Part shown: positions 3,393 through 61,426 of the stretch, piece after piece | Layout: each line of letters begins with the position of its first letter | Position numbering within the stretch: the first letter of the stretch is position 1 | Source of the DNA: a virus | Virus record (IMG/VR): IMGVR_UViG_3300022074_000012 | Coordinates: 1 to 64,000 of that record | DNA: 64,000 nt | Direction: 5' to 3' (one strand) | Made by a program: the position numbers and the translations under genes | The notes under the pieces: generated by a model | The model's database searches: none | What the model was told of the DNA's origin: nothing | What the model saw: the letters and a program-made list of their open reading frames with translations, nothing else

Positions 3393-5201
3393 ATGGATAA
3401 ACCAGTGGCTGCTGCTCCAACAGGAGCAAAGGAAAAAGTTGAGAAACAAGCAAGACAACTTGCTTATGATGTAAGATATAAAACAAAGCAATCACTTGCT
3501 CAAAAGAGTGGTGGAAAGATGGATCCTGCACAGGTTCAAAAGGCGTATATGACACAACTTGCTAAATCTCCTGCACCACCAGCAATAAAGTCAAGAGCAA
3601 AACAAATGTTAATGGGTGAAGATTATAAGAAAGATCTTGGTAAGTTAGTATCTGATAGTGCTGCATCTGCATTGTACAAAGTATTTGTTGAGCATCATCA
3701 GAAAGATGCTAATGGTAATGTAATTGAACATGATGGAAATCCTAGACCAGAAGAAGAGATAGCAGACGATCTTGCACCTAGTTCTGTAGAAGATATAAAC
3801 GAAGAAGAAAAATCATATAAGGTAAGAGTCACTGATAAAAAGACAAGCAATTCTTATGTTAGAATGGCAACTCGTGCTAAGATTAGTGAACTTCGTAGTA
3901 ATCCAAATATCGCATCTGTTGAAATGACAGAGTATGGATCACCTACTAAATCAGAAAAATATAAGGGTAAGCAAACTGCAAGAGCAAAGCAAGGTCTTGA
4001 TCCAGTTGGTAAAGAAGATGGTGATGTCAATAATGACGGTAAGAAAGATGGCACTGATAAGTATCTTATGAATCGTCGTAAGGCAATTGGTAAAGCAATG
4101 TCAAAAGAAGAGTATTCTTGGAGAGATGGTTTTGCTGATTTAATTGAAAAGAAACATAAAGAAGAAAATAAAATTACTGGTGAAGGTGTTAACAATAAAA
4201 AACTTATCAAGGTCTTTCCTGATGATGTAAAAGAAATGTATGGTAGTGCCGCTGGAACTGGTGCATCAATGGCACAGCCAGCACCAGCACCTGAGAAAAA
4301 ACCAGATCCTCAGATAGCATCTAAGGAAAAGAAACAGGCAATGCTTAAAAAGCAAGTGCTTATGAAGAAGTTACAGGCAGTTCGTGCAGGTGCAGGTTCT
4401 GATATCACATCTTCATATAAAACAGATAAGAAATTAACTGAAGGTGAGGACAAACCTGAAGAAGTTTCATCAGATATGGGTGACATTACTTTTGATGCAG
4501 GTGGTGCAATTCCAACAACTATCAAGGCAATTGGTGATCCAAGAGAACTTGAAACTGCAATGAAGTTAAAGAAAACACAACTTCGTGCGTCTGGTCTTAA
4601 CATGTCTCATGAACCAGAAGGTGATATGGTTGAAGCAAAAGTAGACAAAGGAATGATCTTTGGAAAAGATGCAGCAAGAAATGAGAGAAGGTTTGGTACA
4701 AAAGGTAAATTTGATCCACAAGGATCTGGACCTCGTGGGCAAGACATATCACAAAGAGCAAAACTTGCAGTTCAAAGAAAGAAAGAACATGAAGCAAAAA
4801 GAGGTGTAAAAACAAAAGGTAAGATGGGTGAAGCATATGTTGTCAATCAGGCAGATAAAACTTCAAACACTCCTGCGTATCAAGGAATGAAAGCAGATAA
4901 GAAAAATAAACTTACTGGTGAACCTTTATATAAAAAAGCAGATAATATGAAAGAAAACTTAGTTACTATTTCTAATATCAATGTAAAACCAAGTGCTTAT
5001 AAAGGTGAAAAAGATACTATTAAGAACATTTTAAACAAAGAAGTAGCACAAGAAAACTATCGGGCAATGAGAAATCCTAAAGAGGATAAACCAGAGTCAG
5101 AAATGTCTTACGATGAAAAAAGAAAGAAGAGAATGAATGATCCTAAGAAAGGAATCAACTCTCCTGCATTTAAAAAATTCATGGCAAGTCAGGGAATGTA
5201 A
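3393..5201 (+). CDS. large Lys/Ala-rich low-complexity protein with EF-hand-like loop
   Basis: ATG at 3393 is preferred over the in-frame TTG at 3390. The product (about 602 aa) is very rich in Lys, Glu and Ala, with many short helical, charged segments and no membrane span. Near residues 208-220 is a DxNxDGxxDGxD loop (GDVNNDGKKDGTDKYL) of dockerin/EF-hand type, so calcium binding is plausible. KVFPDDVKEMYG near 268 is another distinctive patch. Composition, length and location between two genes with KxFxxF N-termini suggest a head-core, scaffold-like or internal protein of T4-like cyanophages. That role is inference from composition and context. Confidence 0.75.
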   Translation: MDKPVAAAPTGAKEKVEKQARQLAYDVRYKTKQSLAQKSGGKMDPAQVQKAYMTQLAKSPAPPAIKSRAKQMLMGEDYKKDLGKLVSDSAASALYKVFVEHHQKDANGNVIEHDGNPRPEEEIADDLAPSSVEDINEEEKSYKVRVTDKKTSNSYVRMATRAKISELRSNPNIASVEMTEYGSPTKSEKYKGKQTARAKQGLDPVGKEDGDVNNDGKKDGTDKYLMNRRKAIGKAMSKEEYSWRDGFADLIEKKHKEENKITGEGVNNKKLIKVFPDDVKEMYGSAAGTGASMAQPAPAPEKKPDPQIASKEKKQAMLKKQVLMKKLQAVRAGAGSDITSSYKTDKKLTEGEDKPEEVSSDMGDITFDAGGAIPTTIKAIGDPRELETAMKLKKTQLRASGLNMSHEPEGDMVEAKVDKGMIFGKDAARNERRFGTKGKFDPQGSGPRGQDISQRAKLAVQRKKEHEAKRGVKTKGKMGEAYVVNQADKTSNTPAYQGMKADKKNKLTGEPLYKKADNMKENLVTISNINVKPSAYKGEKDTIKNILNKEVAQENYRAMRNPKEDKPESEMSYDEKRKKRMNDPKKGINSPAFKKFMASQGM

Positions 5202-5407
5202 TGAAAACCTTTAAAGAATTCATAAGTGAAGAAGGTTATGATGTTGCAAGAGATCAAGGAAGAGTAAGACCATCTAAAGATAAGAAAGATGCGACTACAA
5301 TGCCACCAAGTGCAGAAATGAGAAAGACACAGAAGGTAAACAAAGGACCTTCTGCTCTTGAACGTGTTAAAGCAAAGTATGGCAAGTCTGTCATGGATGT
5401 AAAATAA
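5201..5407 (+). CDS. small internal-protein-like peptide with MKTFKEFI N-terminus
   Basis: 68-aa protein overlapping the previous stop by one base (TAATG). The first residues MKTFKEFISEE closely match the capsid-targeting sequence of T4 internal proteins (MKTYQEFIAEA). ISE followed by E fits the (L/I)xE cleavage rule of the T4 gp21 head protease. The rest is basic and disordered-looking (DVARDQGRVRPSKDKKDA). This is the cleanest candidate in the window for a packaged and processed head protein. The T4 rule is established knowledge; its use here is inferred. Confidence 0.72.
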   Translation: MKTFKEFISEEGYDVARDQGRVRPSKDKKDATTMPPSAEMRKTQKVNKGPSALERVKAKYGKSVMDVK

Positions 5408-6228
5408 TGCCAGCAGTTTCTAAGAAACAGCAAAAGTTTTTTGGAATAGTTCGTGCAATCCAGAAAGGAGAGATGGCACCTACTACTCCTGAGACTGCAA
5501 AAGCAGCTGAAGACATGAAGAAGGGTGATGTCAAGAAGTTTGCATCAACTAAACATAAAGGTTTACCTGAGAAGAAAAAGATAGAAGAAGATAGACAGAT
5601 TAAAAAAATTATTAAACAACTTAGAAAGTCTGTTAAGTCACATGACAAACAGGCAGATACTCTTGAGAAAAAATTAAAAGAGGAATCAAATCCTCGGATA
5701 CCTAGAAAGAAAGGTCAACCTGCTAATTCTAAGAAACACTCTGACTTGTATACAGATGAAAATCCTAAAGGAACTATTCACGGACTCGGTTTTAAGGATG
5801 TGGCTACTGCTAAAGCATCTGTCTCGAAGATACGTAATTCATCAAGATCACATGCTCATAAGATTCAAGCTGCTGTTGCTATGGAGCAACGGGCAAGAGA
5901 AATGGGTAAAACCTCTGAAGCAGCAGTCTATCGAAAGTACATCAACTCGATGAAGAAAAAGACTAAGAAGATGAATGAGGCAGCAAATCCTGCACAACAG
6001 GCTGCGATTGCCATTGACATGAAGAAGAAAGGTATAAAACCAAAAAATTTAAAAGAACAAATTTCATTCCCACAAATGCAACAACGTGTTAGGGATGCGA
6101 AGGAAAGAAGAAGAGAACAACAAAAAAAATCGGAGAAACTCTACATGGACACTAAGAAAAAAGGTGTCAAATTCTACGATAAAAAAGGTGTTGGTCGGTT
6201 AAAGGACGGAAAGAAGGTATACGACTGA
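5407..6228 (+). CDS. conserved phage protein with DUF3008-like N-terminus
   Basis: Starts MPAVSKKQQKFFGIVRA, the pattern of the small DUF3008 family. A middle block (about 118-172) with NPKGTIHGLGFKD and a conserved helical SRSHAHKIQAAVAMEQRA follows, then a Lys/Glu-rich C-terminus with an LKE protease-like site near 218-222. 273 aa, very basic. It ends the block of internal-protein-like genes, one base overlapping the previous stop. No enzymatic motif. Likely structural or head-internal by context, not proven. Confidence 0.72.
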   Translation: MPAVSKKQQKFFGIVRAIQKGEMAPTTPETAKAAEDMKKGDVKKFASTKHKGLPEKKKIEEDRQIKKIIKQLRKSVKSHDKQADTLEKKLKEESNPRIPRKKGQPANSKKHSDLYTDENPKGTIHGLGFKDVATAKASVSKIRNSSRSHAHKIQAAVAMEQRAREMGKTSEAAVYRKYINSMKKKTKKMNEAANPAQQAAIAIDMKKKGIKPKNLKEQISFPQMQQRVRDAKERRREQQKKSEKLYMDTKKKGVKFYDKKGVGRLKDGKKVYD

Positions 6229-19353: not shown

Positions 19354-19842
19354 TTAGTTAATTGTCAATTCGTTTACAAACTGTCCAGTAGCCACAGTAC
19401 CTGCGCCACCTGCTGTTACAGTGATAACACCAGCACTTGTAATAGTACCAGCTAATGTATCTTTTGCACCAGAAGCAGTTGATACCTGACTTGAGAAGTT
19501 ACCGACAGCACCTACAGTTGGTGCAGATGTTGGAACTGCGTCTGCTTGAATATAAGAACTCGAAAAGCTGAAAGCTGAACCTGCTGTATCTTGAGTTGCT
19601 GCAATTGTACCTGGACTATAAACACCCGATGTGATAGTTCCTGCAGATACTGTACCTGCTGTTGTACCATCGGTTGTATCAATGTTTGAACCTGATATGG
19701 TAAATGTTGATCCAATCCTATCAACCTGAGTTGCAGCTGCGTTTACACTCAACTGAACACTACTTGATAATTTATGAGTTAGATCTGCCATCGCAGGTGA
19801 ACTAAAACCCGCTAACAATAATATAGGTAATAGTTTTTTCAT
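19354..19842 (-). CDS. secreted Ser/Thr/Gly-rich protein (162 aa)
   Basis: First gene of the minus-strand block. Signal peptide MKKLLPILLLAGFSSPAMA then DLTHKLSSS. The mature region is low-complexity and beta-prone (GTVSAGTITSGVYSPGTIA, AGGAGTVATGQF) with no cysteine, consistent with an extracellular beta-fibre or beta-helix protein. Transcribed from the sigma70-type promoter at 19894-19922. Its function during infection is unknown. Confidence 0.7.
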   Translation of the reverse strand: MKKLLPILLLAGFSSPAMADLTHKLSSSVQLSVNAAATQVDRIGSTFTISGSNIDTTDGTTAGTVSAGTITSGVYSPGTIAATQDTAGSAFSFSSSYIQADAVPTSAPTVGAVGNFSSQVSTASGAKDTLAGTITSAGVITVTAGGAGTVATGQFVNELTIN

Positions 19843-19893: not shown

Positions 19894-19922
19894 ATTATAA
19901 CATTAAATTAAAAGCTTGACAA
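19894..19922 (-). promoter_or_regulatory. sigma70-type promoter for minus-strand trio
   Basis: On the minus strand: TTGTCA (19917-19922), 17-bp spacer, TATAAT (19894-19899). Its -35 overlaps that of the divergent plus-strand promoter, so the two should compete for RNA polymerase. Confidence 0.75.
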
Positions 19923-19944
19923 CTGTATCAACATACACTATAGT
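19916..19944 (+). promoter_or_regulatory. sigma70-type promoter for structured RNA / talC
   Basis: TTGACA (19916-19921), 17-bp spacer, TATAGT (19939-19944). Predicted transcription start near 19951. Confidence 0.8.
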
Positions 19945-19950
19945 ATATTT

Positions 19951-20190
19951 GTTGGACGCAACATAGGGAGTGACTGAATAAACTTACTGGCAACCGCTGG
20001 TTAAGGTGATGAGACACAGGTGGTGCTGCTGCGAAAGCAGAATCGACTTACCAGTCGGGTCTCAGGCAAGAATGTATTTACTCTGTAGTAATGCCCATTC
20101 TTTGTTGGTACACAGGAACCCAACCTCCCCTCTTCTTTTTAAGACCTAAGATGCAACTCATGAGAGTCGGGCAGATGGTCTTCTTTTTTT
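19951..20190 (+). ncRNA. unclassified structured RNA or leader upstream of talC
   Basis: About 240 nt with no convincing ORF between a consensus promoter and an intrinsic terminator. Manual folding gives a closing stem GGGAG (19966-19970) / CTCCC (20125-20129) enclosing AACC/GGTT (19992-20002), TGAGAC/GTCTCA (20010-20064) with two inner hairpins CTGCT/AGCAG (20026-20040) and CGACT/AGTCG (20044-20057), AAGAATG/CATTCTT (20068-20102) containing TTACT/AGTAA, and GTTGG/CCAAC (20104-20124). Local base composition is richer in G+C than surrounding genes. It matches no riboswitch, tmRNA, RNase P or 6S consensus that I can recall. It could be a free small RNA or an attenuating leader for talC. Confidence 0.65.
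20141..20190 (+). terminator. Rho-independent terminator before talC
   Basis: AAGACC (20141-20146) pairs with GGTCTT (20177-20182), with an inner ACTC/GAGT hairpin (20156-20167), followed by C and T7 (20184-20190). It ends 14 bp before the talC ATG, so talC expression would need read-through or antitermination. Confidence 0.7.
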
Positions 20191-20203: not shown

Positions 20204-20854
20204 ATGAAAATATTTTTAGATACCGCAAACACAACTGAGATACAAGACGGATATAATACAGGACTTATAGATGGGATTACTACCAACCCAACTCTGATTA
20301 TGAAGAGTGGTAGAGATCCAGAAATTGTATATCAAGAACTCATTGACATGGGATTAACTGATGTCAGTATGGAAGTTGTAGGAAATCGAAAAGAGATGTA
20401 TGAAGAGGGTTTAAGACTCTCAGAAAAGTTTGGTAAGTATGCAACAATCAAAGTTCCTTGTACTCCTGATGGTCTTGCAGTTTGTAGAGAACTATCAAGA
20501 CAACTAATCAGAGTCAATGTAACTCTTATCTTCTCAGTTACACAAGCAATACTCTCTGCCAAGGCAGGTGCAACTTATGTGTCACCATTTGTAGGAAGAG
20601 TTGATGACAATTCATTTGGTGGTCTATGTCTGATAAAAGATATTGCAAATACCTATGCAAAACAGAACTGGAAGAGAACAGAAATACTTGCTGCATCCAT
20701 TCGTAATGTGAGAGATGTGGGTCGTGCTTTTGAATATGGTGCGAATATTTGTACGATTCCTCCATCAGTATTCAACAAGATGTATAATCATATTCTTACT
20801 GATAAAGGGTTAGAACTCTTTGAAAATGATTGGAAATCAACACAAAATGTATAG
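20204..20854 (+). CDS. talC: transaldolase, TalC/fructose-6-phosphate-aldolase type
   Basis: Pentose-phosphate pathway enzyme. In infected cyanobacteria phage TalC is thought to redirect carbon toward NADPH and ribose for nucleotide synthesis. The TIM-barrel N-terminus MKIFLDTANTTEI is typical. The Schiff-base Lys is K83 in TIKVPCTPDG, followed by VNVTLIFS and SPFVGRVDD. 216 aa, the usual size of the short TalC subfamily. It is preceded by a structured RNA and terminator, suggesting leader-controlled expression, and followed by another promoter. Confidence 0.95.
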   Translation: MKIFLDTANTTEIQDGYNTGLIDGITTNPTLIMKSGRDPEIVYQELIDMGLTDVSMEVVGNRKEMYEEGLRLSEKFGKYATIKVPCTPDGLAVCRELSRQLIRVNVTLIFSVTQAILSAKAGATYVSPFVGRVDDNSFGGLCLIKDIANTYAKQNWKRTEILAASIRNVRDVGRAFEYGANICTIPPSVFNKMYNHILTDKGLELFENDWKSTQNV

Positions 20855-20855
20855 C

Positions 20856-20884
20856 TTGACACAATTTTGATCCTATGGTACACT
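20856..20884 (+). promoter_or_regulatory. sigma70-type promoter for porin-like gene
   Basis: TTGACA (20856-20861), 17-bp spacer, TACACT (20879-20884), two bases after the talC stop. Start predicted near 20890, giving a leader of about 114 nt. Confidence 0.75.
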
Positions 20885-20889
20885 AAATA

Positions 20890-21003
20890 CCATTACATAA
20901 CGAAGGACTCGAAAGATCGTAACCCTGCGTAGAATGTAAAAATCTTGTCGAAAGATTTTCCATCCGCAGGTTTTTTAATGCCTAGCGAGATACTTTTAAA
21001 AAA
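20890..21003 (+). promoter_or_regulatory. structured 5' leader with psbA-leader-like motif
   Basis: Contains AAGGACTCGAAA (20903-20914) then ATCGTAACCCTG (20916-20927), the same two blocks found in the psbA leader at 61273-61298. It continues as a long hairpin: CCTGCG (20924-20929) / CGCAGG (20965-20970) with inner AAAATCTT/AAGATTTT (20939-20959) and T6 (20971-20976), which has the form of an attenuator. A relation to the PhotoRC-type RNA motifs described upstream of cyanobacterial and cyanophage psbA is possible but not verified. Confidence 0.65.
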
Positions 21004-61249: not shown

Positions 61250-61426
61250 GTGAGGGTTTCCTCACCATTAGAAAGGACTCGAAATTATCGTAACCCTGAC
61301 TACACAACTGCTCCCAACCAAGACCTCTGTAGGCAGTATAATACCTCGTCTTTCATATCCAGTAGTGAGGGATTACTGGAAATAAATATCGCATCTTCCC
61401 TGATGCCCTATTTAAACGTCTTACTA
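61250..61426 (+). promoter_or_regulatory. long structured 5' leader of psbA
   Basis: 177 nt between the predicted start and the psbA ATG. A perfect hairpin GTGAGG-GTTT-CCTCAC (61250-61265) sits at the 5' end. AAGGACTCGAAA (61273-61284) and ATCGTAACCCTG (61287-61298) match the leader at 20903-20927. TCCAGTA/TACTGGA (61358-61380) forms a later hairpin. The frame happens to be open through this leader, but the D1 N-terminus begins at 61427, so it is read as RNA structure. Related PhotoRC-type motifs are known upstream of marine psbA; identity not checked. Confidence 0.7.

Follow-up and report, generated by a model that had tools for sequence, protein, structure and literature searches.

Weinberg et al. 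introduced manA RNA as a riboswitch candidate in 2010 (PMC2864571), and it has remained an orphan since; Rfam types it as Cis-reg and corrected its structure in release 14.3 (PMC7779021). According to a 2023 paper its regulatory role remains to be verified (PMC9964418), no functional study was found in the literature searched, and the main text of the transcriptome of P-HM2 infecting Prochlorococcus MED4 (PMC5082946) does not mention it.

A copy of this RNA was analysed here in 64,000 nt of viral DNA (positions 1 to 64,000 of IMG/VR record IMGVR_UViG_3300022074_000012, hereafter the window), where it lies directly before the transaldolase gene talC. Structure, promoter, the presence of one copy per genome and the changing genomic position were established by comparison, while transcription and action in trans are what we infer. 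On this comparative basis we favour, with moderate confidence, the reading that manA RNA is a single-copy, autonomous phage RNA gene and not a riboswitch of talC. Such a gene would probably act in trans, and the accepted label of the family, a cis-regulatory leader, is probably wrong.

Identity and fold of the RNA

The structured RNA upstream of talC is a full-length manA RNA, a member of a known family without an explained function: RF01745 matched at 19950–20134 with 183.1 bits (E = 2e-49, gathering threshold 55.2), covering model positions 1–192 of 192. A previous sequence-only reading of the region had considered the RNA unclassified and fitting no RNA class, a view overturned by this Rfam match. 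Features of the locus are as follows.

19894–19922, minus strand: divergent promoter-like site TTGTCA-17-TATAAT, overlapping the plus-strand promoter (consensus match only)
19916–19944, plus strand: sigma-70-type promoter of the RNA, TTGACA-17-TATAGT, 11 of 12 consensus matches
19950–20134, plus strand: manA RNA (RF01745), by covariance-model score and covariation; predicted +1 at the first base of helix P1
19950–19963, plus strand: P1 hairpin UGUUG-GACG-CAACA at the 5′ end, from the mapped Rfam structure; length very variable among relatives
19966–19970, plus strand: pseudoknot 5′ strand GGGAG, pairing with 20125–20129
20010–20064, plus strand: multi-branch domain with closing helix 20010–20015/20059–20064 and three hairpins, one with a GNRA-type loop (GAAA here)
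20068–20102, plus strand: long covarying hairpin of 7 bp plus 4 bp, six of the seven outer pairs changed on both sides
20104–20124, plus strand: last hairpin GUUGG...CCAAC, adjoining the pseudoknot; 100% of cells paired, both-side changes in three of five pairs
20125–20129, plus strand: pseudoknot 3′ strand CUCCC, pairing with 19966–19970
20141–20182, plus strand: element B, conserved 3′ hairpin AAGACCUAAGAUGCAACUC...GAGUCGGGCAGAUGGUCUU, an optional 3′ module of manA RNAs absent from Rfam
20184–20190, plus strand: T tract, seven T after a C, which makes element B a likely intrinsic terminator in the window copy
20204–20854, plus strand: talC (transaldolase), the neighbour, without a Shine-Dalgarno (SD) sequence

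The Rfam fold of the window copy comprises 11 helices and 52 pairs, including a 5-bp pseudoknot around nearly everything, and all 52 mapped pairs are standard pairs. Across 65 diverse relatives, 93% of cells pair and compensatory change was seen in 31 of the 52 pairs (a count that is too low for P1, a variable-length helix that is misaligned); this level of covariation was reached by none of 500 shuffles, and all slid controls were also beaten. In the same 65 relatives five of the six pairs of the multi-branch closing helix covary, and the pseudoknot GGGAG/CUCCC is paired in 99.7% of cells, with one compensatory change from A-U to U-A. The minimum free energy of the region (−65 kcal/mol) was no better than that of shuffles (z = 0.19), and thermodynamic stability was rejected as evidence for structure. 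The closed multi-helix structure proposed from the sequence is thereby confirmed as a real RNA structure by comparison among relatives, not by energy. The same reading had seen no believable open reading frame (ORF), which holds: the longest in the region is 47 aa with a GTG start and has no support.

Promoter and 5′ end

Both divergent promoters that had been proposed, including TTGACA-17-TATAGT, were recovered, at 19916–19944 on the plus strand and 19922–19894 on the minus strand; the latter may serve the minus-strand ORF 19354–19842. In the window, manA RNA begins 5–6 nt downstream of the TTGACA-17-TATAGT promoter. A near-consensus sigma-70 promoter (at least 10 of 12 matches) is in place in 167 of 171 distinct copies, compared to ~3% of random 75-mers from the same loci, and puts the predicted +1 at the first helix, i.e. 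the 5′ end of the RNA, in 167 of 171 copies (by consensus match only). Exceptions are L095 and L039, in which the RNA directly follows a tRNA or tRNA-like sequence.

The −35 box sits in the loop of an upstream terminator hairpin in 60 of the 171 distinct copies, as in GAGGG-TTGACA-CCCTC-TTTTTTT. With this placement, upstream reading would stop where the RNA's own transcription begins, leaving the unit insulated. The arrangement is compact in that the T-tract falls in the promoter spacer and the −35 box itself forms the hairpin loop.

An optional 3′ hairpin

The region had been read as one element of about 240 nt. Its start near 19950 stands; its end does not, since the Rfam model stops at 20134 and the last 50 nt form a separate module, element B. 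This 42-nt AAGACC...GGTCTT hairpin (−13.4 kcal/mol, z = −2.1) has the consensus GACCUAAGAUGCAACU-n-AGUNGGGCAGANGGUC and gave no Rfam match up to E = 1. The intrinsic terminator predicted 14 bp before talC corresponds to a likely one, the hairpin at 20141–20182 followed by a C and seven T, 13 nt before the ATG at 20204.

Exact search patterns, by which more divergent elements could be missed, placed element B directly after the manA 3′ end in 135 of 137 copies, the remaining two being cut by contig ends; an independent widespread motif was rejected on the same counts. The cultured phage collection gave no match. Almost no variation was seen in the loop nucleotides; the outer pair is A-U instead of G-C in 21 copies, and the inner pair U-A instead of C-G in two. 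A T-tract follows in 47 of 86 copies, the window included. Element B was found ahead of gp32, talC, tRNA genes and many others; with following genes so varied, its association is with the RNA, not with the neighbouring gene. It is optional, since L109 has an upstream sequence near-identical to that of the window and the same downstream gene, yet lacks it. As an unreported 3′ hairpin of manA RNA, element B appears to be new as far as the literature found goes.

The 11-nt GAAA tetraloop receptor has the form CCUAAG...UAUGG. Element B contains the similar CCUAAG...GAUGG, differing in that the wobble U is G and the third base of the 3′ strand varies (CCUAAG...GANGG). A role as receptor for the manA P4 loop was rejected because this loop is GCAA, GAGA, GCGA, GGAA, GCAG or GAAA in copies with element B.

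Genes of tRNA-Gly or tRNA-Asn type lie directly 3′ of the RNA in 15 of 170 copies, with a gap of 3–4 nt in S-SSM7 and L095. In S-SSM7, with the tRNA 3–4 nt downstream, RNase P would set the 3′ end of the RNA. A terminator-like hairpin or a tRNA directly downstream occurs in only part of the manA copies.

A conserved tRNA-Gly(UCC)-like gene not called by ARAGORN was also observed directly after manA RNA, mostly after element B (L013, L040, L074, L095, L107, L138, L144, L182, L190, L206 and L213). Its D-loop lacks GG and its T-loop is TGCAATA (U55 to G), yet compensatory changes are seen in the T-stem when variants are compared; at the corresponding position, the tRNA-Gly(UCC) of S-SSM7 and L148 is normal.

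Copy number and genomic position

Searches of whole records with RF01745 gave 43 positive records, every one with exactly one manA copy (the window's 94.9-kb record + 24 + 2 + 16); among them are 16 complete named cyanophages, four viral contigs of 163–236 kb and one Prochlorococcus single-cell assembly. Double copies were never seen; under a truncated Poisson distribution with a mean of 3, the probability of 13 single copies in 13 genomes is < 1e-10, a figure that ignores shared ancestry and serves as a guide only. Near-universal presence without double copies is hard to square with independent gains at many genes. The rule of one copy per genome, whatever the neighbour, also appears to be new with respect to the literature found.

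The position of this single copy changes between genomes. It follows gp23 in P-HM1, MED4-213, P-RSM4, MbCM1 and S-SSM5, precedes gp32 in P-HM2, has pstS on one side and small ORFs on the other, about 1 kb upstream of talC, in P-SSM3, P-SSM4 and P-RSM3, and stands directly before talC in P-RSM6, P-TIM40 and the window. In P-SSM2 it precedes a gene annotated purL that is purS-like by sequence, in P-SSM7 it follows ferredoxin and in S-SSM7 it comes before tRNA-Gly.

Among close pairs, relocation was clear only for P-HM1 and P-HM2, whose capsid proteins gp23 are 92.7% identical. In P-HM1 the RNA forms a unit, with promoter and terminator of its own, in the spacer that separates gp23 from the T4-GC 432 gene; the corresponding spacer of P-HM2 is 93 nt long and holds just a terminator. 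P-HM2 carries the RNA (4771–4969 of GU075905) between a bilin gene and gp32 (5013–5888), where P-HM1 has a 48-nt spacer that keeps a TTGTCA-17-TATAAT promoter; the RNA can thus leave gp32 without the gp32 promoter.

Upstream of the RNA, the sequences of L067, L088, L109 and the window are almost alike, but the downstream genes differ or element B is missing, as if recombination junctions lay within or just after the RNA.

Several annotated 'hypothetical proteins' (PHM2_011, PHM2_012, PHM1_121, SSSM5_127 and PSSM4_169.1) overlap manA RNA, the ORF coordinates being GU075905.1 4849–5023, GU071101.1 112705–112881, GU071097.1 116417–116623 and AY940168.2 164884–165057. These ORFs are probably spurious, and expression values published for them may really report the RNA.

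Distribution among phages and hosts

manA RNA was present in all 14 Prochlorococcus T4-like phages identified (P-SSM5 by similarity only), with copy number checked in the 13 other than P-SSM5; 12 of the 14 had been found via their carrying the RNA, and P-TIM40 and P-RSM1, chosen blind, were both positive. Among eight Synechococcus myophages picked by accession, seven lacked it and S-SSM7 was positive. Other positive Synechococcus phages were S-SSM5, S-TIM4, S-SSM4, S-SSM6a and S-SSM6b, and S-CREM1 carries the RNA according to the literature. Presence in all identified Prochlorococcus T4-like phages, with absence from seven of the eight Synechococcus phages picked, would again be new relative to the literature found. 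A pattern scan of GTDB contigs matched only one Prochlorococcus single-cell assembly, whose contig was taken as phage, and 150 other genomes of its genus lacked the RNA; host-encoded copies were rejected on this ground. manA RNA is encoded by phages and associated with those of Prochlorococcus.

Downstream genes and alternative explanations

The 168 distinct copies with enough flank precede about 30 gene families plus tRNA genes, the neighbours including talC, gp32, gp23, purS and tRNA genes. With such a range, and with the relocation between P-HM1 and P-HM2, a constant link to one functional class of downstream gene was not found. An SD sequence precedes the next ORF in 27 of the 168 copies (talC 0 of 18, gp32 10 of 52), and SD masking by the CCUCCC strand, given how few starts have one, was not accepted as a general platform. 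The next gene is nearly always close, often at 10–150 nt, and is on the same strand in 127 of 135 copies (94%) compared to 85% of adjacent pairs in the same loci, some of the eight exceptions being dubious ORFs; closeness and shared strand would make co-transcription the rule. P-TIM68 was dropped as a case of a convergent downstream gene, as a plus-strand zinc-ribbon ORF common to L056 and L078 starts there.

About 60% of copies are without a recognisable terminator before the next gene, and roughly 40% have a terminator-like hairpin. Terminators, where present, vary between copies and start downstream of the RNA without overlapping it. Neither a conserved switching element between RNA and gene nor a common expression platform (SD masking, terminator/antiterminator) was found.

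Two other RNA elements were observed elsewhere in the window. A PhotoRC-II RNA (RF01717, 61.8 bits), a known cyanophage element, lies upstream of psbA at 61297–61393. Between talC and the next ORF (20856–20976), a promoter-like TTGACA-17-TACACT is followed after ~85 nt by a long hairpin, CCTGCG...CGCAGG, and TTTTTT; these may mark a second small RNA or leader.

According to the published view, manA RNA is a cis-acting leader or riboswitch, a sensor of a metabolite or of the state of infection through which transcription or translation of the next gene is controlled. Its status as a riboswitch candidate (PMC2864571) and the Cis-reg label speak for it, as do the close next gene, co-directional in 94% of copies, the aptamer-like conserved internal-loop sequences and the terminator-like hairpins in roughly 40%. 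We nevertheless consider it unlikely. Each genome has one copy though many of the other possible target genes are present in it, even close relatives differ in the partner gene, most starts have no upstream SD, and tRNA genes, for which translation cannot be the target, follow some copies; element B and other terminators begin past the 3′ strand of the pseudoknot, and no conserved antiterminator was found. The sequence-only reading had offered a metabolite-sensing leader for carbon rerouting, which loses support as talC is one of about 30 downstream genes, has no SD in any of its 18 cases and is reached through no conserved switching element. Its other suggestion, a free phage small RNA, gains support from the single copy per genome, the predicted promoter of its own, the changing neighbours and the tRNA-linked copies.

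A leader that modifies the polymerase, as HK022 put RNA does, would have the nascent RNA bind its own RNA polymerase and allow read-through of terminators such as element B with its U-tract. This fits an RNA whose 5′ end coincides with the predicted +1 of a strong promoter, which tolerates any downstream gene, tRNA genes included, and which often lies just upstream of a terminator. One copy per genome is ill-suited to a general antitermination signal and many copies have no nearby terminator, making this alternative improbable. Least credible is a non-regulatory 5′ stabiliser or insulator, with the 5′-terminal hairpin and pseudoknot guarding phage transcripts from RNases: the P1 hairpin does stand at +1 in almost all copies, but simple protection needs neither dozens of invariant loop nucleotides nor a single copy per genome.

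A probable autonomous RNA gene

As an autonomous gene, manA RNA would have a strong sigma-70 promoter from which host RNA polymerase, on entry of the phage DNA, would make a pseudoknotted RNA of ~185 nt starting at +1, here with the conserved 3′ hairpin and U-tract. A stable RNA would be released by hairpin termination, tRNA processing or cleavage from a longer transcript, and would act in trans. It would bind some factor, of the host or of the phage, that infection of Prochlorococcus requires: a protein, or a ligand or RNA complexed with a protein. The downstream gene, talC in the window, would be a passenger that may also come to be transcribed from the RNA's promoter. Core size and conservation, which resemble those of a riboswitch aptamer, count against this reading, as does the fact that a single close pair shows clear relocation, and our confidence in it is held at a moderate level by the close co-directional next gene and by the ~60% of copies without a recognisable terminator.

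More tentatively, the RNA could be a single-copy, host-linked, trans-acting gene that changes genomic sites, in effect universal in Prochlorococcus T4-like phages, with element B as a second binding site in uncultured lineages; this fuller version we consider possible, at somewhat less than even confidence. If true, a general RNA effector of cyanophage infection would have been wrongly listed, as a riboswitch candidate, for 16 years. For an independent RNA gene, the search for a ligand controlling mannose or fructose genes would be the wrong experiment, and the single-copy rule together with the P-HM1/P-HM2 pair makes autonomy testable in cultured phages.

Comparison with known systems

HK022 put RNA, as outlined in PMC9378689, is likewise a phage RNA that begins a transcript and could act regardless of the sequence that follows, an analogy of working only. 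manA RNA differs in occurring once per genome and in having many more conserved nucleotides, and the two are likened by function and not by homology. GOLLD and ROOL, as they are portrayed in PMC12286853, are free-standing structured phage RNAs without a known target, and some manA copies similarly adjoin tRNA genes; manA RNA differs in being ~185 nt long and classed as a leader, the likeness being one of description with no sequence relation claimed. The closest system remains RF01745 itself (PMC2864571), with which the window copy shares its helices, pseudoknot, T4-like cyanophage habitat and position 5′ of a sugar-metabolism gene, and to which it adds, together with over 130 other copies, a conserved 3′ hairpin that the model lacks.
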